Below are positions 8,527 to 41,041 of a stretch of DNA of 43,761 bases, one piece after another; the first letter of the stretch is position 1; each line of letters opens with the position of its first letter. The notes beneath the pieces are model-generated. The model saw only the letters and a list, made by a program, of their open reading frames with translations, ran no database searches and was not told the origin of the DNA. Position numbers and translations under genes: made by a program. The DNA comes from an uncultured Clostridia bacterium. GTDB taxonomy: Bacteria > Bacillota > Clostridia > Oscillospirales > Acutalibacteraceae. The stretch covers positions 1-43,761 of the forward strand of contig CAMVLW010000010.1 of NCBI GenBank assembly GCA_947168445.1. Reading direction: 5' to 3'.

Positions 8527-9150
8527 TTACCATTCTTTGTCCTCGTCGTCCTCCTCTTGGTTGATGGCGCGGAAGATTTCGTCGCATTTATCACGTGTCA
8601 GCTTGGGAAGGCCGTCATCGCAGCGGTTCTTTTTGCCGCGGTACAGGCGGTTCAGTGTCTGTTTGAATCCCTCCTGTGCCCGCTGACGGTGATGTTCATC
8701 TCTGCCAAGCAGCATTTCGTATTCAACAGACTGTTCGGCGATTCTTTCCGCAATCATCTCGGGCGGAACCATGCCCATAGCAAACCGGCGAATGTCTGTT
8801 CCGAACACCTTTAAATAATCTGCTGCGGTGAAACAAACGCCCTCACACGCGTCGGGTGTCGTTGTAAAGCAAAGCAGAATTTTTCCCATTTCGGATTGAT
8901 ACTCAAAGTACATGCCTTCCATCACTTCATTGGCTTGCATCATGTATTCCGCCGCAAGGTTGTAGATACACACCGCGCCAAAGTCAATTTTGCCTGTCAC
9001 TGTGGTATCGCTCAGCGGCTCAAAGAGTACATGGTACTCCTCGCCAAAACTGGCGGTGACAAAGCTTTCGCCTGCCGCGGTGTGATAAAACAGGTCGCTG
9101 TTTTTCATCTGTTGTCTGAGTTTCAAAATCATAAGGTATTGTCTGTCCAT
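8527..9150 (-). CDS. Conserved-looking protein of unknown function, last gene of kinase cassette
   Basis: 207 residues. The ATG overlaps the stop of the preceding 4-TM gene (TAATG), so translation is probably coupled. The N-terminal half looks like a compact alpha/beta domain, with FGEEYHVLFEPLS, then FGAVCIYNLAAEYM and a hydrophobic strand ILLCFTTTP. The C-terminal part is charged (YRGKKNR; EEDDEDKEW end). No catalytic motif, signal peptide or membrane helix is recognised. Its place at the end of the kinase-VWA-PP2C cassette suggests it is a substrate, chaperone or adaptor of that system; this is inference from position only. Confidence 0.7.
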   Translation of the reverse strand: MDRQYLMILKLRQQMKNSDLFYHTAAGESFVTASFGEEYHVLFEPLSDTTVTGKIDFGAVCIYNLAAEYMMQANEVMEGMYFEYQSEMGKILLCFTTTPDACEGVCFTAADYLKVFGTDIRRFAMGMVPPEMIAERIAEQSVEYEMLLGRDEHHRQRAQEGFKQTLNRLYRGKKNRCDDGLPKLTRDKCDEIFRAINQEEDDEDKEW

Positions 9151-9701
9151 TAGAATCCTCCTTTAAAAAATATGCAGATAAATTCATTGCCCTTCACCGA
9201 AAGGCTGCGGATAAAGATATGGCTGAGCGCGCATTGAAGCGTCACGCCGATGACGATATACATCAGGAACAGTCCGATGAAGATTGCCGGAGAAGGCGGG
9301 CTTTCAAGGTATTCGCCGCCGTTTGTCGCAAGACAGAGCAGCTTGTTCTCTGTTTTCAGCGATACGCCCTTGAAGCGGAGCACTGCCGAAACAATCGCCA
9401 GCACGCTGAGCAGCGCTGTGACGGCAATCGTGCCCGGGTTCTCAAACAATTGCTTCATGTACGCCGTGGTGCTCAGGCAGTAGCCGCAGTAGGGAAGAAG
9501 TACCGCGGCGGCTGCCTGTGCGGTTGTTTTGTTGCCGAGCATGGTGTAGAAGAAGCCCGCCAAGAGCGCTCCCGCAGCGGCGACAATCTCTCCGATGGTG
9601 AGCGCGTGCAGTTCCTTGTTATACACAATCAGGAAGAACACGCTGCCCGCCGTCAGGGTGAAAAAGATGTAGGTTAAGGTGAATTTGATTTTTGATTTCA
9701 T
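9150..9701 (-). CDS. Four-helix integral membrane protein of kinase cassette
   Basis: 183 residues from ATG 9701 (GGAGAG about ten bases upstream); GTG 9710 is an in-frame alternative. Four hydrophobic segments lie at about 8-28, 38-58, 85-108 and 143-165. The family is not recognised. It has its own likely promoter (9726-9757), which shares ATGC repeats with the promoters of the kinase and transglutaminase genes, so it may be transcribed apart from the genes above it. The downstream gene overlaps its stop by one base. A membrane target or anchor for the phosphorylation module is plausible but unproven. Confidence 0.7.
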   Translation of the reverse strand: MKSKIKFTLTYIFFTLTAGSVFFLIVYNKELHALTIGEIVAAAGALLAGFFYTMLGNKTTAQAAAAVLLPYCGYCLSTTAYMKQLFENPGTIAVTALLSVLAIVSAVLRFKGVSLKTENKLLCLATNGGEYLESPPSPAIFIGLFLMYIVIGVTLQCALSHIFIRSLSVKGNEFICIFFKGGF

Positions 9702-9725
9702 TTGAATCACTCTCCTTTCGTAACT

Positions 9726-9757
9726 ATCATAACAAGGTCATGCATGATTCCGGCATA
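9726..9757 (-). promoter_or_regulatory. Candidate activator-type promoter A (membrane gene)
   Basis: On the minus strand TATGCC (9757-9752) and CATGCA (9746-9741) are 11 bases apart and precede TATGAT (9731-9726). No -35 box is present; GCCGGA occupies its place. The transglutaminase promoter has the same arrangement and spacing, and the kinase upstream region has related repeats. Confidence 0.4.
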
Positions 9758-9773
9758 ATTGTGCGGTGTTGCT

Positions 9774-10943
9774 TTAAATTGTCGGCGGCAGCGTGTTGCG
9801 GAAGAAGCCCGCGTTCTTGAAGTAGCCGGAGTTGTGGGTAATCCAGTTGCGGTAGGCAAGGTGCTGCCTTGCCGCTTCACCGTAATAGCGCGTGGCGGCG
9901 GTGTTTTCAACGACGGACTGCTGAATTCCCGACAGCGAGCTGTTAATGGCGGACATTGAGTTGTTCAGTCCGTTAAAGCCGTTTTGCAGCGCGCCTTGGA
10001 TTCCTGCGTTTTGCTCGGCAATGGCTTCAAGGCGGCTGGTGATAATGCGGCTTTGCGCGAGAATCCCGGACATATGCTGATTCAGGTGCTGTGTTTGCTG
10101 ATAAATGCGGCTGGCGGTGCGGCTGATGTTGTTGAGCGTGGCGCCGATACCGTCAAGGGCGTTTATGACGCGGTCAAACTGACGGATATGGTCAAGATGG
10201 TCAATGCTGTCCTTCATGTCCGCGTCGTTTACGCCGCGCGGCGCGTAATAGATTGCGCGGGTGTCAAAGTAATCATAGATGAGCGAGAGACAGTGGGGGT
10301 TGCGGTGCTTGGGGTGGACAATGCCCTCGCTGTAATAAGGCGCGAGCAGGGCGTTGATTTTCTTGATTTCCGTCTCCATTTTTGCGTTTTCCTTGTTGAG
10401 ATACTCGCGCTTTAAGCGGTTGGCGAGAATGGTTTTGTTGCGTTGGAGCACGGCTTGCTCAAATTCTCTGCGGGCGGCGTTGTATTTCTCATTCTCCTCA
10501 CTGCATACGCGCTCGTGCTCCGCACGCTTGAAGTCGTTTTGCTGCCTGACGGCGTTTTGCCGTCTTATGCGCATGTTCTGCTTCTCTATGCGGCTGCTCT
10601 CTGAGCCTCTGGTGATTCCGCCAGCAATGGCGAGAACCACAGCGATGATAAACGGGGGAATGGAGGCATTGTACTCCCAGCCTATGACGAAAATCATCAC
10701 AAAGGAGAACGCCGCTGCGAAGAAGAGCATGGAAGAGAAGAGGTGCGTCACCTCGCGTTCCTCAGGTTCTTCCTTTTGGTAATCCGGGGTGGCAATCTGC
10801 GCTCTTACGGGAGCCTTGGGCATTGGCGGGTCGTTGAGCGCACTGATTCGGCGGCGGTTTTGCTCGATAAGACCTTGCAGCGCGCTCTTTTGGTTTTCTA
10901 AGTCTAGGCAGGTTCCGAGATACTGCATAAGGTGACGGTACAT
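9774..10943 (-). CDS. Coiled-coil membrane protein of kinase cassette
   Basis: 389 residues; ATG lies two bases after the PP2C stop codon (TAAGCATG), so it is co-translated. A short N-terminal helical region is followed by two adjacent membrane helices (about 68-88 and 94-112), then a long charged coiled coil (about 115-200, rich in R, E and Q). The C-terminal half is low-complexity and amphipathic, with repeated NxIS/IxQ patterns (GIGATLNNISRTASRIYQQ) reminiscent of methyl-accepting or syntaxin-like helices. I do not recognise the family. As the membrane component beside a kinase and a phosphatase it may be the phospho-regulated effector. Confidence 0.75.
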   Translation of the reverse strand: MYRHLMQYLGTCLDLENQKSALQGLIEQNRRRISALNDPPMPKAPVRAQIATPDYQKEEPEEREVTHLFSSMLFFAAAFSFVMIFVIGWEYNASIPPFIIAVVLAIAGGITRGSESSRIEKQNMRIRRQNAVRQQNDFKRAEHERVCSEENEKYNAARREFEQAVLQRNKTILANRLKREYLNKENAKMETEIKKINALLAPYYSEGIVHPKHRNPHCLSLIYDYFDTRAIYYAPRGVNDADMKDSIDHLDHIRQFDRVINALDGIGATLNNISRTASRIYQQTQHLNQHMSGILAQSRIITSRLEAIAEQNAGIQGALQNGFNGLNNSMSAINSSLSGIQQSVVENTAATRYYGEAARQHLAYRNWITHNSGYFKNAGFFRNTLPPTI

Positions 10944-10945
10944 GC

Positions 10946-12124
10946 TTATCCCTCCTCATACTTTCTTTTGTATTCGCTCTGCGCCTGCTCTAAGGCGTTG
11001 CGCAGGTCGAGGTATTCGCCGCTGTATTCGTCATATTCGGCTTTCAGGCTGTCGTATTCCTCGCGCGCCTTCTTCTCCTTTGCGAACAGCTTGTAGGTTT
11101 CGCGCATGGCGGCGGCAAGCTGCTTCTTTGCCTGTCTGTTGCTCTCGGGAGCGGCGTTTTTGATAATACCGGAAAAGATTTCGGCAAGGGTCAGGGGCTT
11201 TTCAAAGCTGTTGAGCGTTCTTTCAAGGCTTTTGAGCTTGCCGCCGTTCTCAATCGAATTGATTTTATTCTTTAAGTAAGAAATCTCGCTCTTTAAGCTG
11301 AGTCTGTCCTTCTCGCGCTCCGCCGCCTGACGGATAACTTTTTCATAGCCGGACAGGGTGACAACAACGGCGGAAGCGTCGTCATGACTCACAGCGCGGC
11401 TTCTGGTGTCGAGCGCCGCTGCGGTGTCGGCAGGGGAGAGTCCGATTAAGGAAGGGAGAAAGGCGAAGGTTTCGCTGCGGGAGCCTTCCACGCCGTCTGT
11501 GGCGATTGCAAAGCCGCCGAGGTTGCCGAGCTCAAACACGCCGCAGCGGACGGCGGCAGGGTTCATCTCGCACAGCGAGGTGCTGATGTTGCCGCGGCAG
11601 CGCTCGTCCAACGCAAGCGCCTGCGAGGGCTTGCCGTCGCGGTCATAGAGCACCGTCACGCCGTCGCCCGCCTGCAAGAGAATGAGCTGCTGCGCGTCCT
11701 CGCTGAACACGCCCGCAATCAGGGTGGTGCCGTAGGCGTGCTCTGTGAAGCGGTTTTGGCGGTGCAGCTCCGCGTCCGGCACGCCGCTCAGTTCCTCCTC
11801 GGTGAAGGGGTGGGCTTCAAGGTGCGCCTGCACCGCCTCCTTCCAGCCGTAGAGAAGGTTGAGCGTGATGTGGCGCAGCAGCGCGTCCTTCTCCTCGCCG
11901 CGCAGCTTTTGCGCAATCTCCTTGGTGAAGGGAAAGCTGCTCAGCGCCTCGCACGCCACCTTGCAGGCGAGCTTTGAACCGACAGCGGCGCGGAAGCAGT
12001 TGGAATCGCTGTGACCGTCGGCAACGGCAAAGGCGCAGCCGGCGGTGAGCACGCTGTCCTCGCAGGGCATGTTCTCTTTAATGTGGCGGCAGCCGCGAAC
12101 GCTGCCTGCGTTCATTTTATACAT
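10946..12124 (-). CDS. PP2C-type Ser/Thr protein phosphatase with C-terminal coiled coil
   Basis: 392 residues from ATG 12124, which has AAGGAGG upstream; an in-frame extension to 12271 overlaps the VWA gene and has no ribosome site. PP2C motifs appear in order: CEDS (about 21-24), VADGHS (about 34-39), GTTLIAG, ATDGVEG and SHDDAS, which supply the metal-binding aspartates. After about residue 255 a long Lys/Glu-rich coiled coil runs to the end, which is unusual for stand-alone PP2C and may dock to the coiled-coil membrane protein encoded next. It would reverse the action of the kinase at 12980-14266. It lies 58 bases after the VWA gene. Confidence 0.88.
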   Translation of the reverse strand: MYKMNAGSVRGCRHIKENMPCEDSVLTAGCAFAVADGHSDSNCFRAAVGSKLACKVACEALSSFPFTKEIAQKLRGEEKDALLRHITLNLLYGWKEAVQAHLEAHPFTEEELSGVPDAELHRQNRFTEHAYGTTLIAGVFSEDAQQLILLQAGDGVTVLYDRDGKPSQALALDERCRGNISTSLCEMNPAAVRCGVFELGNLGGFAIATDGVEGSRSETFAFLPSLIGLSPADTAAALDTRSRAVSHDDASAVVVTLSGYEKVIRQAAEREKDRLSLKSEISYLKNKINSIENGGKLKSLERTLNSFEKPLTLAEIFSGIIKNAAPESNRQAKKQLAAAMRETYKLFAKEKKAREEYDSLKAEYDEYSGEYLDLRNALEQAQSEYKRKYEEG

Positions 12125-12182
12125 TGGAACCTCCTTGTCGTGTGTGGGGTGCGGAGACCACGCCCCGGTGTCTGTATTCTGT

Positions 12183-12962
12183 TTAGGGATTAATCCAGCC
12201 CGAGTCGTCGTATTCCCACTTGCCGGAGTTGTCATCGGGGTCGGGGGTTTCGGTGGAACCGTCGGCGTCAATGGGCTCCTCGTTATCCGTCATCTCCTCC
12301 TTGACCTTGTGCGCCACGTCAGAGGAAATCTGTGCGGAGGAAATGTGGGTCTTTTCCTTCATGAAAATGGTGGAGATTGTCGCGTCGGTGAGCAGCTCGG
12401 CAATGTCCTCAACGTTGTTGACGGGAATTACCGCGTCGTCGCTGCTGGCAAAGCTTTTGAGCATTTCAACGTCCGCGTCGTCGCCGATGGGAATGACAAT
12501 GCGGGTGGCGGCGTTGTACCACTTGTTGGTTTCGAGCAAGCGCTTTTGCTCCTCGTAGCTTTGTGTGGAGTGACCGTCGCTGAGAATGAAGATGACCGGA
12601 GCGACAAAGCCGGGGGAGTCGTCGCCGTCATCGGTTCTGAACATGCGCGCGGAGCTGAGCTCCTTGTCCATTACCTCGCACAAGTCACCGACGTTGGTTC
12701 TGCCGTATGCGGTCAGCGGGTCAAGCTTCAAGTCCGCCATATCGACCGGGCTGTCAAACATGGGCGTTGCCTCAGAGGAGAAGGTGATAATCTGGCACAC
12801 GGGCTGGACGTTGAGTTCGTTTGTTTTTTCGTGAATCACCTTCTGGATAGTGCTGATTGACGTGTCCACCTGGAGAATCTTGTCGCCGTTCATGGAGCCG
12901 GAGTTGTCGAGCGCGAACAGGGTTGCGAGTCTTTTTAAGATGTAGTAGTTATTGATTTTCAT
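12183..12962 (-). CDS. VWA-domain protein, TerY-like
   Basis: 259 residues; ATG 12962 has AGGAGG upstream. The MIDAS metal site is complete: DNSGSM at 19-24, a threonine in GRTNVG near 90, and LSDGHS near 130. The VWA fold covers about 10-205. The C-terminal tail is strongly acidic (EEPIDADGS, PDPDDNSGKWEYDD) and probably disordered. The TerY branch of VWA proteins is encoded with a PP2C phosphatase and a Ser/Thr kinase in Ter-associated stress systems, and the same three genes lie together here in one operon. It has no signal peptide, so a cytoplasmic scaffold role is likely. Confidence 0.87.
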   Translation of the reverse strand: MKINNYYILKRLATLFALDNSGSMNGDKILQVDTSISTIQKVIHEKTNELNVQPVCQIITFSSEATPMFDSPVDMADLKLDPLTAYGRTNVGDLCEVMDKELSSARMFRTDDGDDSPGFVAPVIFILSDGHSTQSYEEQKRLLETNKWYNAATRIVIPIGDDADVEMLKSFASSDDAVIPVNNVEDIAELLTDATISTIFMKEKTHISSAQISSDVAHKVKEEMTDNEEPIDADGSTETPDPDDNSGKWEYDDSGWINP

Positions 12963-12979
12963 GGTTTTTCCTCCTAATA

Positions 12980-14266
12980 CTAAATAAATTCTATCAGTGT
13001 TCTGGCGCCGCTTTTCAGCTTAATGCCTTTGATGCAGGGAACCACCTCGAGCGGGCGGACGGCGCGCTCTTTTCCGTTGAGCGCTTCACCCGTCAGCTCT
13101 GTGCCGGAGAGATTAACGATACCAAAGCGGTGCGATTTTTTGTCGGTCACCGCCGCGGCAAAAGGACGGAGCATTTCCGACCACTTGACCGTGGCAACCT
13201 GACCCTTTAACAGGGTGGTGTTCTTGTGCAGCGGAAGGCTATAGTGCGGCAGCTTGATTCGGTGCTCGAATTTGAGCGTTGTGCCGCAGCCGTCGCAGCG
13301 CTGCACTGACTTTTCAATGGCGTTTTCCTCGCCGCAGCAGGGGCACACTGCAAGCTCGCTGCGCAGCGCCATCAGGTGCTCTGCCCATTCTTCAAGCTGG
13401 ACGCGGCTTTCGGGATTGGCATACGCCGTTCTGCCAAAGGCTCTGCGGAACAGGCGGCGCATGTGCTCCGGCATGGCGTTCCAGATGGCGACAACATTCT
13501 CCTGCGCTGCCATCGGCGCGTTGTCGCTGTTGTGCTCGTCAAAGATAAACAGCGGGTCGGTCTGATAGAGTTTGACGGCAATCTCAGGCGTCAGGCAAAT
13601 GCACTTGAAATAGCGCTTGCCGTGGAGCGGGTGGTTGTTGAAGAACATCTCAAACACCAGCGTGGCGTAGGCGAGCAAATCGGAATACTTGGTAGGCGGT
13701 GCGCCCGCCATTACCTCGGGAGCGATATAAGTGGGCGTGCCGTCGATTCCTTTGTTGCTGGTGCTGGAGGAGATGTTGTCGGTGTCGATAATTCTCAGCG
13801 TTCCCGTGTCGCAGTCAATCATGGTGTTGCGAGGGGAGATGTCCTTAAAATATTTTCCGTTGCGGCTGAGCACCGCAAAGGCTCTTGCGGCGGTGAGCGC
13901 CGCGTTGCAAACAGCGCGAAAGCTTTTGAGGCGCAGGGAAGGGTCGTTCTGAATGACGGTCAGCGTGTGATAGCGGCGGGGGAGCAGCTCCATCAGGTAG
14001 CCAAAGCCGCCCGCACCGTCCTCAATCAGTTCCTGCGGCCACACAAACGCCGCGTCGGGAGCGCCGTCGGCAATCATGCGGGCGATTCTGCGCTTGTACT
14101 CCGCGCTGCAAAAGTCCGGGCGGAACCACTTCAACGCCTTTTCCTTTCCGCCGTCGCTGACGGTGTAAAGACAGGCGGTGGCGCCTGTGTCGCTGAGCAG
14201 CGCCTTGACAACCACCTTGGCGTCGTTTTGCTTGTGAAGAACAGCGCCGGGTTCGAATTTTTTCAT
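12980..14266 (-). CDS. Ser/Thr protein kinase with C-terminal zinc ribbon
   Basis: 428 residues; ATG 14266 follows AAAGGAATG. The kinase fold is clear but has variant motifs: the VAIK lysine is K46 (ALKWF), the HRD motif reads FKD (140-142) with N147 retained, DFG is replaced by DTD (161-163), and APE is intact (182-184) after GTPTY. The catalytic aspartates and lysine are present, so activity is likely. A zinc ribbon follows (C308/C311 and C324/C327). The last ~90 residues look like a small beta-rich domain. The first gene of the cassette, it is the probable writer for PP2C, VWA and membrane partners encoded after it. Confidence 0.87.
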   Translation of the reverse strand: MKKFEPGAVLHKQNDAKVVVKALLSDTGATACLYTVSDGGKEKALKWFRPDFCSAEYKRRIARMIADGAPDAAFVWPQELIEDGAGGFGYLMELLPRRYHTLTVIQNDPSLRLKSFRAVCNAALTAARAFAVLSRNGKYFKDISPRNTMIDCDTGTLRIIDTDNISSSTSNKGIDGTPTYIAPEVMAGAPPTKYSDLLAYATLVFEMFFNNHPLHGKRYFKCICLTPEIAVKLYQTDPLFIFDEHNSDNAPMAAQENVVAIWNAMPEHMRRLFRRAFGRTAYANPESRVQLEEWAEHLMALRSELAVCPCCGEENAIEKSVQRCDGCGTTLKFEHRIKLPHYSLPLHKNTTLLKGQVATVKWSEMLRPFAAAVTDKKSHRFGIVNLSGTELTGEALNGKERAVRPLEVVPCIKGIKLKSGARTLIEFI

Positions 14267-16156: not shown

Positions 16157-16204
16157 AAAAAAGAAAGCACTCCGTTAAGAGTGCTTGTTCTGGCGGAGAC
16201 GGTG
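16157..16204. repeat. 48-bp direct repeat, copy 1 (tRNA 3' end plus terminator)
   Basis: Identical to 16342-16389 at a 185-bp offset. It contains the AGCACTC/GAGTGCT hairpin and the tRNA-Ser CCA and 3' acceptor sequence, but the rest of the tRNA does not follow. Confidence 0.85.
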
Positions 16205-16340
16205 TGTGTTACAGCGACAGAAAGGCTCTGCGCCGTTTTATGCGGCGTGAGCACCGCCAAAGAGCTATCTACGCTCTCGCGGAAAACAGTCCGCCGGACT
16301 GTTTTCTGTTCGCTCGCCTTCGAATCCCACCGCCTCCGCC
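16192..16340. repeat. 149-bp palindromic element ending in tRNA-Ser-like termini
   Basis: It begins GGCGGAGACGGTG and ends CACCGCCTCCGCC, inverted copies with one mismatch that match the tRNA-Ser 3' end. Inside it is a perfect GAAAACAGTCC-GCC-GGACTGTTTTC palindrome and a CGCCG..CGGCG stem. Bases 16319-16340 are an inverted copy (one mismatch) of 16377-16398, inside the tRNA gene. No coding sequence is seen. Confidence 0.6.
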
Positions 16341-16344
16341 CAAA

Positions 16345-16370
16345 AAAGAAAGCACTCCGTTAAGAGTGCT
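16345..16370 (-). terminator. Terminator of tRNA-Ser
   Basis: AGCACTC (16351-16357) and GAGTGCT (16364-16370) form the stem; on the minus strand it is followed by TTCTTTTTT. Confidence 0.8.
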
Positions 16371-16375
16371 TGTTC

Positions 16376-16464
16376 TGGCGGAGACGGTGGGATTCGAACC
16401 CACGGTACCGTGAGGTACAACTGATTTCGAGTCAGTCCCGTTATGACCACTTCGATACGTCTCC
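16376..16464 (-). tRNA. tRNA-Ser(CGA), CCA encoded
   Basis: Minus-strand acceptor GGAGACG (from 16464) pairs with CGTCTCC (16386-16380), followed by G and CCA. The anticodon arm ACTGA-CTCGAAA-TCAGT gives anticodon CGA, which reads UCG. A long variable arm (ACCTCACGGT) and a T-arm with GGTTCGAATCC fit class II tRNA-Ser. Confidence 0.95.
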
Positions 16465-16561: not shown

Positions 16562-16610
16562 GTTTTAGCGGAAAATTTTTTTGATTCCTCGCGCGAAATT
16601 TTTACAGCTA

Positions 16611-16639
16611 TAGACAACCTTATGCAACTATGTTATAAT
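16611..16639 (+). promoter_or_regulatory. Promoter of the NACHT operon
   Basis: TAGACA (16611-16616), 17 bases, TATAAT (16634-16639). TATGCA at 16621-16626 followed by TATG at 16629 resembles the repeats of promoters A-C, but the spacing differs. Confidence 0.55.
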
Positions 16640-16676
16640 ATTTTTATCATATTACTGCGAAAAGGAGGTGCCGCGT

Positions 16677-18548
16677 ATGGCGATTTATGCTATCCGGCAT
16701 ATTGATTCGGGCAAAACCGCCTGCTTTGACGCGGGCAACGGGATTTTTTATGCCTATGAAATGCATGATAAAAGCAGCGATAATGTCATTCTCCTGAAAA
16801 ACACGTTTTTTCGCATTTTTGAACTGTTGGTATTCAATAACGGCAATATGGTTTCCGAGGATACGTTTGCTGAACAGGCGTTTCTTGAACGCGATACCAC
16901 GCGGCACGCAATGCAAAACAGCATTAACAACTGCAAAAAGCTCTTTCTTGAAAAATGTCCGTGGATTGCCGACAGCATTGTCAGGGGAGAGGGCGCAAGC
17001 GCAAGGCTGAAAAACTGCGTTGTGAAAAAGCTTCCGTGCGTACCCTACAGCTTTCTTTTCGGCGATAAGGACGAAACAGTCCGTTTGTACCGTCAGGCAT
17101 TGCTGAATGCCGAAAGGGAGTCCGGCTACGGCGTGGATTTCAAAACGCTCGACGACGGAAATCCGCTCGCGCAGCGCTATGTGTTTCCGAACCTTTCCTT
17201 TCAAAGGGGCGGCGGCAGGCTGCTTTCTTCAAGATATGACAATTTCCGCAGAGTGGTAATCGCTCCCGCGGGAATCGGAAAAACCTCGCTGCTAAAGGCG
17301 GTTATGCTGCATTACGCGCAAAATCTTCCCGAACTCGGCGAACAGCTCGGCGCGGCGGACGGTTTCTTTCCTGTTTTTGTCCGCGCGGACAAGGCGAACA
17401 GTCAGCCGGGCAGCTTTTCGCTTTTCGATTTGGCGTTTGACGCGCAAATTCCGTTTTTTAAAAATCTTTCGGCAGAGGGCAGACTGCTGATGTTAATCGA
17501 CGGCTATGACGAACTCAGCAGCTATCAGCCCGACACCGAACTGGAATCTCCGCTGGAACGGTTTCAGGCGGCGCTCAGGGCGTTCCGGCAAGCGTTTCCG
17601 AAAGCCTCTGTCATTGTGACAAGCCGGTTCAACGACCCGCTGTTTGAGGAGTTTGAGCCTGTCAGACTCGAACGCTTCACGGACGAACAGATTGAAAAAT
17701 ATCTTAAAAAAGAAGTGGAGCGGAATCCCTCGCAAAAGCAGCGCTGTGACGAAATCACCGCCAGCGCGCTGCTCAAATCGCTTGCGTCGTCGCCGTTTTG
17801 CCTGTCGGAGCTGCTGCGGATTCACGCGGACGCGGCAAAATCCGCCGAAGCGCTGTGCGACGCGATTATCCGCCGCAGAATCAACAGCGGCCTCGGCGCG
17901 GAGGTAAAGGACATCCGGATGGCGCTCGCCTTTGTCGCCTATGACGCGGTGTTTGTCCAAGCGTCACCGCTTTCAAAATATGTCGTCAGCCAAGACAACC
18001 TGAAAAAATTCTTTTTGTCCGCTGCCGAAGCTGCCTTTGACATTGAGGGCTGCGAGGACGATAATGATGCGCTAAAGCTAAAGCGCCGTCAGTTAAACAC
18101 AGTCGTCAACGATATGCTGCCCATCAAGTCCGGAATCCTGTCGCGTTTGCCGAGAGAGCAAGCCTATCAGTTCTCCGCCAACCCGCTTTTGGTGCAGTAT
18201 TTGGCGGCGGCAGCGCTGCTCGGCTGGAAAGAACAGCGCGATGGCTCCGGGGCGTATTCTGCTGTCGCGGAGTTGGTGGCGCGTTTTGGCTTCGGCGGAA
18301 CGCTGACCGAGGATATTTTGTTCTCGCTCGCGCTTTTGTTTGAGTTTCTCAACAAGGGAAAAGACCAGTTTGATTTGCTTTCCTACATCATCAACCGCGG
18401 CTTTACCGCGGCGGCGGACGAGCGCAGCCGCGTGATAGAGGCTGCGGACAGGATTTTCCGCAAGGAATTCGGCGACAACAGCCGTTTGGACAAAAAGCAA
18501 ACCGAACAGCTGCAAAACGCGCTGAATTATTTGAGAGATACGGTTTAA
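16677..18548 (+). CDS. Winged-helix / NACHT-type STAND NTPase
   Basis: 623 residues from ATG 16677, eight bases after AAGGAGG. Residues ~35-118 resemble the OmpR/PhoB C-terminal winged helix (KNTFFRIFELLVFNNGNMVS, then a recognition-helix-like ERDTTRHAMQNS). A STAND-type NTPase follows: Walker A APAGIGKTS (196-204), Walker B LLMLIDGYDEL (270-280) with the NACHT-type DGxDE, and a sensor-like VTSR (314-317). The C-terminal ~300 residues are helical. NACHT proteins oligomerise on sensing a trigger; bacterial members include anti-phage proteins. The winged helix could make this a DNA-binding, self-assembling regulator. First gene of a three-gene operon; the next starts six bases after its stop. 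Confidence 0.78.
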   Translation: MAIYAIRHIDSGKTACFDAGNGIFYAYEMHDKSSDNVILLKNTFFRIFELLVFNNGNMVSEDTFAEQAFLERDTTRHAMQNSINNCKKLFLEKCPWIADSIVRGEGASARLKNCVVKKLPCVPYSFLFGDKDETVRLYRQALLNAERESGYGVDFKTLDDGNPLAQRYVFPNLSFQRGGGRLLSSRYDNFRRVVIAPAGIGKTSLLKAVMLHYAQNLPELGEQLGAADGFFPVFVRADKANSQPGSFSLFDLAFDAQIPFFKNLSAEGRLLMLIDGYDELSSYQPDTELESPLERFQAALRAFRQAFPKASVIVTSRFNDPLFEEFEPVRLERFTDEQIEKYLKKEVERNPSQKQRCDEITASALLKSLASSPFCLSELLRIHADAAKSAEALCDAIIRRRINSGLGAEVKDIRMALAFVAYDAVFVQASPLSKYVVSQDNLKKFFLSAAEAAFDIEGCEDDNDALKLKRRQLNTVVNDMLPIKSGILSRLPREQAYQFSANPLLVQYLAAAALLGWKEQRDGSGAYSAVAELVARFGFGGTLTEDILFSLALLFEFLNKGKDQFDLLSYIINRGFTAAADERSRVIEAADRIFRKEFGDNSRLDKKQTEQLQNALNYLRDTV

Positions 18549-18554
18549 GAAAGA

Positions 18555-21407
18555 ATGAAAAACGATTCTGTGTTCGCGCGGTGCGCCGCGAAATTTGATG
18601 AATTCACCGAAACGCCGGTGCAGGCGCATGTGCCGCAGCGGGAAGCGTACCAAAAGCCGCCGCGGTTTGAAAGCGTTTATTTTACACAGCGTGTGTTTCG
18701 TGATTACGGCAGTGTAAAAGCCGCGTCCATGCGGGAATATATAGAACGCAGCTCAGAGCGCGTCGCGCGGGAGGACGCGCTTTCGGGAGATTTGCCGCGG
18801 TATATGCTGACAGGCTCTCAGGGCTGCGGCAAAACCTTTTTTGCGGTGCGGCTGTGCCGTGCGTACTTTGCGAATGACAAGGATTTTTTGCGGCTTTTTC
18901 ATACGCCGAACAGTTCGCTTTTTAAAACCGAGCCGCTTTTTCCCGTGTATTGCGACCTCAATCTCGCGGGCAAAATCACGGAGGAAGAAGCGTTTTCACG
19001 GCTGTTGTACCAAACCGCCTGCAGTGTGCCGTCGAGCGTGAGCGCCGAAGCGTTTGAGGAATACTTAAATCATCGCAGTGCGGACGGCAGCGCGTTTTTG
19101 ATTTTTGACAGCTGCGATTGTTTGAATGAAGCAGAATGGCGGATTTTTGACCGCGGCTTGTCTGCTTTTTTGGAAAAGCGGCAGCAAATTCAAGTGCTGC
19201 TGATCGGCAAGCAATCGCTTTCAGTGGGAGCGCGGGGCTTCAAGCCGCTGCGTCTTTGCGGAATCCGCACCGAAGCCGAAGCGTGGCGGTTTGCCGAAGG
19301 CTGGTTTAACGCCTATTACGCGGACGCCGAACTCGCGCGAAAGGCGCTTGCGGAATTGCAGGCGGATGTGGCGGCAAGCGCGCCGGAGGACACGGCGATT
19401 CTCCTTGTGAATCCGCTGTGCCTGTCCTATTACCTCTACCGCTTTCCCGAACGGCGGCGCGACAAGGCGGCGTTCTATGACGGACTGGTGAGCTTACAGC
19501 TGCGGCGCTGTCTTGACCGCCGCGATATGCTTTTGAGCGACAATCAGCTTCGAACGCTCGCGTCCTGTCTGTGTGCCGCCGATTATTTTGACGGCGGCAT
19601 GACGCTTGAACGGATAGAGCAGGCAGCCGCCGGATTGTTTGACAGAAATCTGATGTTTGAAAACGCGGACGCACAGGCGGCTGTCTGCTCGCTTTTGCGC
19701 TGCGGCTTGCTTTCACCGCTGCCTCATCAGCCCGGTTGCTACGGCGTTGCGCTGCCGCAAGCGTGCCGCCGATTGTTGTGCGCCGAAGCGGTGTTGGAAG
19801 AAAATGCCGGACATGATTGCGATTTTTTGATTGAGCACGCCGTCAAATATCACGAAGTCGCGGTGATGGCGGCTTCACTGAGCGCGGGCTTTGCAAAGGC
19901 GCTGTTCAGAAGCGTTATCGACAGGCTCCTTGACGGAGAAGCGCCTGACGACAGGGCAGAAGCGGTCTTGGGAGCCATCGGGCTGACTGTTATCGGCAGC
20001 CGCGGCGTTAAAATTTCGCCCGGAATGGTAGACGAGTTCTGCGGCGCAATGTTCCGCGAGGTTTCCGTTTCCGGCGTTCTCACACTGGCAAGGGTGTTAA
20101 CGGACGGCGTTCTGCGCGTTGAGCAGATTCGTGACAGCATAGAAAGCCATTTCCGCGAGGCGGCGGAGCGCGGAGAGATGACGTTCGGCTATGCGATTGC
20201 GGCGACAGAACTGTGCGCTTGCCGTGAAAGCAGTTTTGCAACGCGGCTGGAGTCGCTGCTGCAAAGCGGCGATTTGTATGAACAGGCGGCGGCGCTCCAT
20301 GTGTTGTCGCTGCTTGGCAAGCTGCTGCTTTTGAAAATCGACATAGAGGCGTTTTTCCCTGCCGCCGCGGATATTTTTCCGCTGAGCGGAGTTGCGCATC
20401 AGGCGCTGACGCGGCTGCTGCTCGGCTTTCCGCAGCGAAAGCTTGCCGCTTATGCGGCGTGGCAGATTCTCGGCTCCGGCGCTGTGCGGCGCGAGGCGCT
20501 TTCCGTCAGCGACGAAGCACTTTCGGCGCGGCTTGCGGACAAACGGGATTCCGCAGCGGAAATCCTTCTGCTGTTCAGCGACATTCTGCGCAAGCCGTTT
20601 CCGTCCGGAGAACCCTGCGCCGCGGCACAGCGCTATTATTCTCTTTTTACGCAGGCGGATTCCATTGAAAAATGGGCGCTGTATTTCCGTCTGTCCGTTG
20701 CCGCCGGATTCCCTTGGAAGCCCTCCGATTTTTTCCGGTTTTACATCACGCTGGACGAAAAGTTAGAGGAGCAGGGAAACGCGGCGCACTCGCTTGTGTA
20801 TGCCGCCTTTTGCCAAACCTCGGCGGCGGTTGAGGTGCTGTTTAAAAGCAGACACCGCCTTGTGTTTGTGATTAACCGTGCGCGGCGCGGCGACAAAATG
20901 TTCAATAAGCTGATTGAAAAACGCGACGGCGAGGCGCTTGCCATGACAGCGGTGCTGTTTCGCAGGGGCGTGGTGCTGCGCCTGTTTCTTATGGAAGAGG
21001 AGCCGGTGGAGTTTTCGCCGTGCGGTTGGCTGGAATTCATCGGGCTGATTGCCCGCAAGGATAACTTTGCCATGATGGAGTACGCGCTGGCAAAGGAAGG
21101 CTTTTCGGGCTTGACGAACGGTAGCCTGCAAGCCTGCCTTGAAGCGCTCATGGCGCGGGGAGACGCGCCATGTCAGCCCTTACGTGAGGACGTTGCGCTG
21201 TTTTATGAGTCCTACGTCTGCGACAACGACCTTGAAGCCGTTGCCGCGCTCGTGCTGCTCTGCCGGGTTTACGGCGAGGCGTACCGCGGGCTTTCTCAAT
21301 TGGATTTCTACAAGCTGGGCGCGGTGAATCTCACCCTGATGAACCACGGCGTTTCCGGCGAAATCCGTCGCCGGATTCTCGGCGTTTTGAGGGGGGAAGG
21401 GGAATGA
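18555..21407 (+). CDS. NACHT-like NTPase with degenerate Walker B and long helical C-terminus
   Basis: 950 residues; ATG six bases after the previous stop. Walker A GSQGCGKT lies at 87-94. The Walker B region reads FLIFDSCDCL (181-190), where the acidic residue after the second Asp of the NACHT DGxDE motif is Cys, so hydrolysis may be impaired. From about 280 onward the protein is almost wholly helical and Leu/Ala-rich, with HEAT- or TPR-like periodicity, such as the sensor arms of STAND proteins. It has no winged helix and no recognisable effector domain. It probably pairs with the upstream NACHT protein as sensor and signal-transducer. The next gene overlaps its stop (ATGA). Confidence 0.72.
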   Translation: MKNDSVFARCAAKFDEFTETPVQAHVPQREAYQKPPRFESVYFTQRVFRDYGSVKAASMREYIERSSERVAREDALSGDLPRYMLTGSQGCGKTFFAVRLCRAYFANDKDFLRLFHTPNSSLFKTEPLFPVYCDLNLAGKITEEEAFSRLLYQTACSVPSSVSAEAFEEYLNHRSADGSAFLIFDSCDCLNEAEWRIFDRGLSAFLEKRQQIQVLLIGKQSLSVGARGFKPLRLCGIRTEAEAWRFAEGWFNAYYADAELARKALAELQADVAASAPEDTAILLVNPLCLSYYLYRFPERRRDKAAFYDGLVSLQLRRCLDRRDMLLSDNQLRTLASCLCAADYFDGGMTLERIEQAAAGLFDRNLMFENADAQAAVCSLLRCGLLSPLPHQPGCYGVALPQACRRLLCAEAVLEENAGHDCDFLIEHAVKYHEVAVMAASLSAGFAKALFRSVIDRLLDGEAPDDRAEAVLGAIGLTVIGSRGVKISPGMVDEFCGAMFREVSVSGVLTLARVLTDGVLRVEQIRDSIESHFREAAERGEMTFGYAIAATELCACRESSFATRLESLLQSGDLYEQAAALHVLSLLGKLLLLKIDIEAFFPAAADIFPLSGVAHQALTRLLLGFPQRKLAAYAAWQILGSGAVRREALSVSDEALSARLADKRDSAAEILLLFSDILRKPFPSGEPCAAAQRYYSLFTQADSIEKWALYFRLSVAAGFPWKPSDFFRFYITLDEKLEEQGNAAHSLVYAAFCQTSAAVEVLFKSRHRLVFVINRARRGDKMFNKLIEKRDGEALAMTAVLFRRGVVLRLFLMEEEPVEFSPCGWLEFIGLIARKDNFAMMEYALAKEGFSGLTNGSLQACLEALMARGDAPCQPLREDVALFYESYVCDNDLEAVAALVLLCRVYGEAYRGLSQLDFYKLGAVNLTLMNHGVSGEIRRRILGVLRGEGE

Positions 21408-21673
21408 AAAACTGTATTTTGATTAACGGCGAGCGCTTTTTGCCGGTTTGCGGCTATGATCTTCGCGGCAGGGAATATGTCGGCGTTTTTGAGTACGCGC
21501 AGGAAATCCGCGACGGCAAGCCTGTTTACCGACCCGTGCCGAAGGTGTTTGACCCGGCTTCCGGAACGCTGAAGGACGTGCTGACGGCGGAGGAACAGCT
21601 TGAATTTGCCAAGCGCCTGAAAAATTCCGTGAACGAAATAATGGAATCCGGGGATTACGGCTTTCGAGAATAA
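21404..21673 (+). CDS. Small protein of unknown family, third gene of NACHT operon
   Basis: 89 residues; ATG overlaps the previous stop codon, so translation is coupled. It is a soluble, mixed-charge protein: an N-terminal beta-like segment (CILINGERFLPVCGYDLRG), a central VPKVFDPASGTL, and a C-terminal amphipathic helix (EEQLEFAKRLKNSVNEI). No known motif is recognised. A strong terminator follows. Its strict coupling to two NTPases suggests it is a subunit, trigger or effector of the same system; that is inference from position. Confidence 0.7.
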   Translation: MKNCILINGERFLPVCGYDLRGREYVGVFEYAQEIRDGKPVYRPVPKVFDPASGTLKDVLTAEEQLEFAKRLKNSVNEIMESGDYGFRE

Positions 21674-21676
21674 TAA

Positions 21677-21721
21677 CAGCCGCCGGCTCATGCCCGAGAA
21701 ATCGGGGTGAACCGGCGGCTG
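21677..21721. terminator. Terminator between NACHT operon and rmuC
   Basis: CAGCCGCCGG (21677-21686) pairs with CCGGCGGCTG (21712-21721), with an inner CCCGA/TCGGG stem. It serves both converging units. Confidence 0.8.
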
Positions 21722-40825: not shown

Positions 40826-41034
40826 AAAACAAAAAGCCGCAGGGGAGCATACCCTGCGGCAAAAATTCACCAATCCGAATAGCACTCCGCCTAAGCGACA
40901 GTTCTGCGCATATTCTGCGCAGCCCCAGCCGCTGTCAAACGGAAATCCGGCAGCAGCTTCGGCGGAATTTCCTTTCACCCGCGGCGTTTCCGCGCCGTTT
41001 TCCGGGCTACTGATAAAGTCCGCGCCTCTATCAC
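40826..41034 (-). promoter_or_regulatory. Lysine riboswitch (L box) with terminator
   Basis: On the minus strand the aptamer runs from about 41034 to 40875. It begins GATAGAGGCGCG, continues with GTGAAAGG and CCGCCGAAGC, then GGCTGGGG and ACTGTCGC, and closes with GAGTGCTATTC, all hallmarks of the L box. The expression platform is GCCGCAGGG.. / ..CCCTGCGGC (40860-40836) followed by TTTTTGTTTT. High lysine should favour the terminator and shut off the downstream NhaC-type gene. Confidence 0.93.
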
Positions 41035-41041
41035 AATCATT

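Follow-up and report, generated by a model that had tools for sequence, protein, structure and literature searches.

Bacterial NACHT (bNACHT) anti-phage proteins were reportedly the subject of a study by Kibby et al. in 2023. In the NAIP/NLRC4 inflammasome, a sensor NLR triggers the polymerisation of a helper NLR, and the heads of SARP proteins are OmpR-like. According to the parts of PMC12169576 that concern them, bacterial NACHT proteins defend against phage and carry effector, NACHT module and sensor in one chain, and the account of DS-8 in PMC13092281 presents a recently validated defence protein that combines an unusual metallophosphatase with a NACHT domain. In their passages on nSTAND2, Kaur et al. 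2021 (PMC8195603) predicted a mobile two-gene system that couples an intact STAND with one whose NTP motifs are eroded. The pair is predicted to form a mixed ring, the inactive protein bears GT4 or HEPN effectors, and the family is close to CR-ATPases and Dap3. The same passages propose nucleic-acid sensing for eroded or inactive STANDs. An inactive STAND also belongs to the iSTAND ternary systems, which need MoxR and vWA operon partners as described in the corresponding part of Kaur et al. 2020 (PMC7159879), and it was later proposed as the sensing component (PMC8195603). AfsR is portrayed in the parts of PMC10936776 that deal with its activation as a single SARP+NOD+TPR protein, in which an OmpR-like head on a STAND module is restrained and then released by ATP binding.

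Within the 43,761-nt window that we analysed, positions 16677–21673 are occupied by three ORFs reading in the same direction. ORF1 (16677–18548, plus strand; 623 aa counted from the ATG at 16677) is separated by 6 nt from ORF2 (18555–21407, plus strand; 950 aa), and the start codon of ORF3 (21404–21673, plus strand; 89 aa) lies within the ORF2 stop (ATGA). In 300 dinucleotide shuffles of the region open frames reached at most 407 codons (mean of maxima 219); at 626 and 950 codons, the ORF1 and ORF2 frames are therefore not due to chance. Because of the 6-nt gap and the ATGA overlap the linkage of the three genes is real; the translational link that had been proposed stands as an arrangement, while the coupling itself is what we infer from it. 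A ribosome-binding site, AGGAGG, can be read at 16663–16668 (plus strand), 8 nt before the ATG. A promoter-like TAGACA-17-TATAAT sequence with TG before the second hexamer (16611–16639, plus strand; 11 of 12 matches) lies upstream of ORF1, with 37 nt between its end and the start codon. Since the region holds four promoter-like sites against a mean of 2.6 in shuffles, it is the position of this site, not the number of sites, that argues for a promoter. A strong hairpin (21677–21721, plus strand; -36.2 kcal/mol, z -6.35 against 200 shuffles) lies between ORF3 and the convergent RmuC gene; it is terminator-like, but its plus strand has no long T run and it does not appear in the terminator scan output. 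Neither a nuclease or TIR nor any other effector family came up in Pfam and further family scans of ORF1–3, and the three proteins are free of strongly hydrophobic segments. The core of the original prediction, two NACHT-type STAND NTPases packed closely into an operon with a small orphan protein, was borne out.

The NACHT domain of ORF1 (17265–17717, plus strand) was recognised by Pfam (PF05729) at E 1.5e-10, with 41.6 bits against a curated cut-off of 26.7. It carries the Walker A motif APAGIGKT, the Walker B motif LMLIDGYDE (D275-G-Y-D278-E279) and the sensor VTSR. In an alignment with seven NACHT proteins from the same order (L093, L094, L095, L096, L098, L105 and L110), Walker A, DGYDE, TSR, the helical-domain P and the F...Y..A motif were all kept in ORF1, and a profile of these eight sequences had NLRC4 and then NLRP3 as its top PDB matches. 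Judged by motifs and profile score, ORF1 is a genuine NACHT NTPase. Its plan comprises an N-terminal region (residues 1–115), the NACHT NTPase (approximately 185–350), a NACHT-associated helical region containing the F...Y..A motif (499–511) and about 110 C-terminal residues. Because the chain stops about 110 residues past this motif, ORF1 has no long sensor region. At one column of the F...Y..A motif ORF1 has Ala, where all seven other proteins have His. In animal NLRs the His at that position helps to hold ADP, and so ORF1 may, by analogy, be less tightly locked.

The N terminus of ORF1, which the original prediction took to be a winged helix, contains a candidate OmpR-type domain at residues 26–112 (16752–17012, plus strand). 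When the N terminus was cut out and scanned by itself, PF00486 was the sole Pfam family to match at E up to 10 (13.7 bits, E 0.068, 24736 models); its scores of 12.6 to 13.7 bits are about half of the curated cut-off of 26.2, and it was missing when the entire ORF1 was scanned against Pfam at E up to 1. When the bacterium's own genome was scanned with PF00486, ORF1 was the only match beyond the four above the cut-off (13.3 bits, E 0.15). Such sub-cut-off matches occur about once per genome (17 genomes), and ORF1 ranks 10th of 19. Against a profile of six response-regulator domains, ORF1 was outscored by 8 of 394 decoys, a set that includes one copy of ORF1, and by 8 of 1000 shuffles. With a 32-domain profile none of the 393 other decoys and only one of 1000 shuffles reached its hmmsearch score, but its N terminus ranked 15th of 595 in hhalign. 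Global profile alignment gave a negative score (z 3.0; higher in 7 of 392 decoys and 4 of 500 shuffles) and placed VRGEG close to the position of the wing motif of response regulators. These home-made profile and shuffle tests put the N terminus within roughly the top 0.3 to 2.5% of decoys. With a pI of 6.3 to 6.9 the domain is not basic, and the single-sequence AlphaFold model of ORF1 was useless (mean pLDDT 38.1). On balance the odds lean slightly towards a winged-helix fold, and we are less sure of DNA binding than of the fold. The predicted winged helix hence remains plausible, with PF00486 as the sole match, but is statistically weak, being outscored by some decoys and shuffles. Because of this weakness, a transcriptional output or DNA sensing is something that we infer.

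ORF2 gave sub-cut-off P-loop matches only in Pfam (AAA_22, E 0.0015; NACHT, E 0.0083), the NACHT match (PF05729) reaching 16.4 bits against the cut-off of 26.7. Comparison with the NACHT profile in hhalign yielded 91.7% over 234 columns, running through Walker B and the PL.LS motif. An ABC ATPase control reached 81.7% over only 30 columns round Walker A, and an RmuC control 0.1%. Since the ABC control attained its value on the P-loop alone, the argument for ORF2 is the length of the match and not its probability. On this evidence ORF2 is a diverged NACHT-type NTPase, as a remote relation; ORF1 and ORF2 are barely alike by BLASTP (17 bits, E 3). The NTPase extends over residues 83–351 or so by profile, to about 410 by eye, and is followed by approximately 530 residues, counted by eye from the place that matches the ORF1 F...Y..A motif. 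Walker A (GSQGCGKT, residues 87–94; 18813–18836, plus strand) is intact. Motif comparison and alignment showed an altered Walker B (FLIFDSCDC, residues 181–189; 19095–19121, plus strand), in which the DGYDE of ORF1 has become DSCDC (D185-S-C-D188-C189) with both Asp retained, and the sensor TSR is replaced by IGK. Its description as damaged is therefore fair, yet Walker A and both Asp are kept. Given the intact Walker A and the altered DSCDC and IGK, ORF2 probably binds nucleotide and may hydrolyse it poorly. The long helical arm predicted for ORF2 agrees with the model in so far as helices only were seen past residue 217 or thereabouts, but this is a low-confidence single-sequence model (mean pLDDT 41.9), with ten-residue pLDDT means above 60 only within residues 451–540. 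Beyond residue 420 the sequence showed no detectable repeats (45 of 200 shuffles were equally good).

ORF3 had no family in Pfam, further family or PADLOC-DB scans, as anticipated for a small protein of no known family. A match to Sigma70_r1_2 was rejected, being 15 residues long and below the cut-off. One ORF3 cluster, 92% identical over all 89 residues, is located on metagenome contigs of up to 5263 bases. Two partial matches in genome contigs were rejected; they sit inside genes that by eye are ribosomal protein L3-like and FAD-dependent dehydrogenase-like. Among the 161 genus genomes there were 18 other matches at E up to 1. The best (E 0.004) is antisense to a gene that by eye resembles a tyrosine kinase, and the other 17 were taken as noise.

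A gene-neighbourhood search for the trio was run and produced no relatives of ORF1 or ORF2. ORF1 was not seen outside its own genome (1 of 161 genus, 1 of 394 order and 1 of 204 phylum genomes, in overlapping samples). Equally, a survey of 59 relatives and 331 class genomes showed ORF2 in its own genome alone, barring weak matches judged to be chance. Of four weak extra ORF2 matches in the 59 relatives (E 0.001 to 0.079), two fall in AddB-like and RecJ frames, one (L003) covers 47 residues where the frames have no Pfam family above cut-off and was judged to be chance, and that in L005 has E 0.074. The extra match in the class genomes, a 134-codon frame with three stops, was rejected. Against 5.8 billion proteins, ORF1 and ORF2 each retrieved only itself; this search scored only about 8000 top word-sharing candidates for each query and may miss distant relatives, so the negatives weigh against close and middling relatives and not against distant ones. 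Searches of phages, plasmids and viral contigs yielded no relatives of ORF1 or ORF2, genome contigs yielded none of ORF2, and no homologous ORF1-ORF2 pair emerged in the relative, genus, order, class or phylum genome searches.

We also inspected the neighbourhoods of other NACHT genes. NACHT scored above cut-off in 25 of 345 order genomes, and 20 of the 25 above-cut-off places besides ORF1 were examined, leaving out G056, G422, G495, G342 and G437 (frames of 398 to 473 codons). Neighbouring frames of at least 150 codons were inspected by eye, guided by a Walker A pattern, a procedure that a fully eroded partner would escape. No directly adjacent second Walker A frame was seen at 19 of these places, L103 being set aside (its NACHT frame is masked by a longer antisense frame). 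A second Walker A frame two genes away at L107 was rejected as a DUF927 protein, not a STAND, and L112 is by eye a Clp-like ATPase. In the titles and abstract openings of the open-licence PMC papers searched, no description was found of a winged-helix NACHT paired with a degenerate NACHT.

To the right of the operon lie RmuC, S1-domain and HAD-like genes. With genus relatives sharing up to 82% identity in the adjacent RmuC, the contig fits its genome. RmuC was present in 150 of 160 genus genomes. Its 3' side was inspected in 20 of these 150; none of 13 other window genes matched there at 1e-5 (S1 and HAD sit on the opposite side of RmuC and are not expected, and several stretches end at contig ends), there was no tRNA, and no clean empty site was seen in the 20 stretches. 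To the left, across a tRNA-Ser, Pfam identified a run of three kinds of gene, PP2C phosphatase, vWA and protein kinase (10946–14266, minus strand), which is reminiscent of the TerY-P triad; the vWA gene is 3.7 kb from the operon on the opposite strand. The block kinase matches PD-T4-6 defence kinase models (best E 2.3e-9). Beside the block, at 8527–10943 (minus strand), are genes of 206, 186 and 389 aa with no Pfam match at 0.001. Because ORF1 occurs in 1 of 161 genus genomes and the block kinase in 1 of 160, in each case its own genome, the operon is an accessory unit in a variable stretch. No integrase or transposase family was found among the 23 window proteins scanned with Pfam, which lie in the left-hand two thirds of the window. 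The tRNA-Ser(CGA) gene (16376–16464, minus strand) has its 3' end and the hairpin behind it duplicated in a perfect 48-bp direct repeat (16157–16204 and 16342–16389, 185 bp apart), with an inverted remnant of that tRNA end between the two copies (inverted 16319–16348 and 16369–16398). This looks like past recombination or integration at the tRNA-Ser 3' end, towards the kinase and not towards the operon. Elsewhere in the window, a lysine riboswitch is located at 40872–41038 (minus strand, 93.9 bits).

No known system model matched the operon (PADLOC-DB, best E 0.017), consistent with the original prediction that it is no recognised system. The accompanying view that the arrangement is unfamiliar needs qualification, since pairs of intact and eroded STANDs are already predicted in the nSTAND2 passages of PMC8195603. 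As in those pairs, two STAND genes are adjacent here and one is eroded, though ORF2 keeps Walker A. The operon seems to differ from nSTAND2, a family marked by an NTPase with an arginine finger: ORF1 and ORF2 are NACHT-like, it is the intact ORF1 that bears the head, and no GT4 or HEPN family was found in ORF1–3 by Pfam. An eroded STAND is likewise shared with the iSTAND ternary systems, but the MoxR and vWA partners described for them are missing among the three genes. The resemblance of ORF2 and ORF1 to NAIP and NLRC4 is an analogy only: NLRC4 chains were the top PDB matches of the ORF1-containing profile, whereas no LRR or CARD family was found in the operon proteins. Active and eroded STAND pairs and DNA-binding STANDs are each known already, and it is their combination that is new.

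We consider a split STAND switch, with sensing by ORF2 and output by ORF1, possibly on DNA, to be the best reading, at a probability of about 0.38. The short chain of ORF1 after F...Y..A and the roughly 530 residues of ORF2 were counted in favour of this division of labour. Kaur et al. 2021, in the passages cited, provide a precedent for active and eroded STAND pairs in one operon, and AfsR one for a DNA-binding head under the control of a STAND module. In such a switch ORF2 would be the sensor, its C-terminal arm binding the trigger, which may be a phage or other invader, and its nucleotide-binding module would probably hold ATP, perhaps without turnover. Once triggered, this module would template the opening and oligomerisation of ORF1, the output arm, which would have no large sensor of its own. 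The ORF1 N-terminal domains, probably OmpR-like winged helices, would then cluster and alter DNA binding near target promoters, perhaps including the operon's own, and ORF3 would act as a partner, inhibitor or cofactor of the pair. A bolder form of the idea is unlikely: a bacterial sensor-helper NLR pair, in which the degenerate NACHT nucleates a ring, winged-helix heads are clustered on DNA, a small partner protein is dedicated to the pair, and infection is answered by gene switching and not by cell killing.

A slightly less probable alternative is that the locus is an anti-phage operon of the bNACHT type, with a new toxic or inhibitory effector, either the N-terminal domain of ORF1 or ORF3, that does not bind DNA and is released when the NACHT pair senses infection. 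The NACHT modules themselves, the anti-phage activity and the DS-8 architecture described in the parts of PMC12169576 and PMC13092281 cited above, and the accessory distribution of the operon all fit this explanation. Unlike the single-chain bNACHT proteins, effector, NACHT and sensor are here seemingly split over two proteins. Against the anti-phage explanation, neither a nuclease, TIR nor other effector family was detected in the operon proteins. PADLOC-DB matches were no better than E 0.017 (ORF1, mad8, E 0.042 over the NACHT region; ORF2, Unk_04, E 0.017; ORF3, none), relatives of ORF1 and ORF2 were missing from the phage, plasmid and viral collections searched, and the right-hand neighbours are RmuC, S1-domain and HAD-like genes.

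That the operon encodes an ordinary STAND transcription regulator like AfsR or MalT, with a metabolic or stress role and ORF2 as a diverged partner, is quite unlikely. AfsR, as laid out in those parts of PMC10936776, likewise has its OmpR-type head in front of a STAND NTPase, although in ORF1 the winged helix is a candidate only, the NTPase is a NACHT and the sensor seemingly resides in a second protein. BTAD, TPR and an NB-ARC type NOD, which mark SARP/AfsR proteins, were not found in the Pfam scans, and no target gene cluster is evident alongside the operon. A 13-nt direct repeat with 23-nt spacing (16568–16603), just 5' of the operon's promoter-like site, would suit a regulator but is only mildly unusual, being equalled in 20 of 1000 shuffles. 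Finally, a decaying remnant without present function, with ORF2 as a degenerating copy, would explain why parts of Walker B and sensor 1 are gone and why no ORF2 relative was found, but is very improbable given three intact frames, the retained promoter-like site, ribosome-binding site and overlaps, the intact ORF2 Walker A, and an ORF3 conserved at full length on other contigs.

For the split STAND switch, no relatives were found that back the arrangement, and the operon is for this reason an isolated candidate. Its present value is that of a well-defined candidate for structure prediction and expression, not an established system. If the split-switch reading is true, the operon would represent a compact natural NLR-type sensor and helper split across two bacterial proteins, with DNA binding replacing a lethal effector, and the role proposed for inactive STANDs in the passages of PMC8195603 would become testable in a three-gene cassette.
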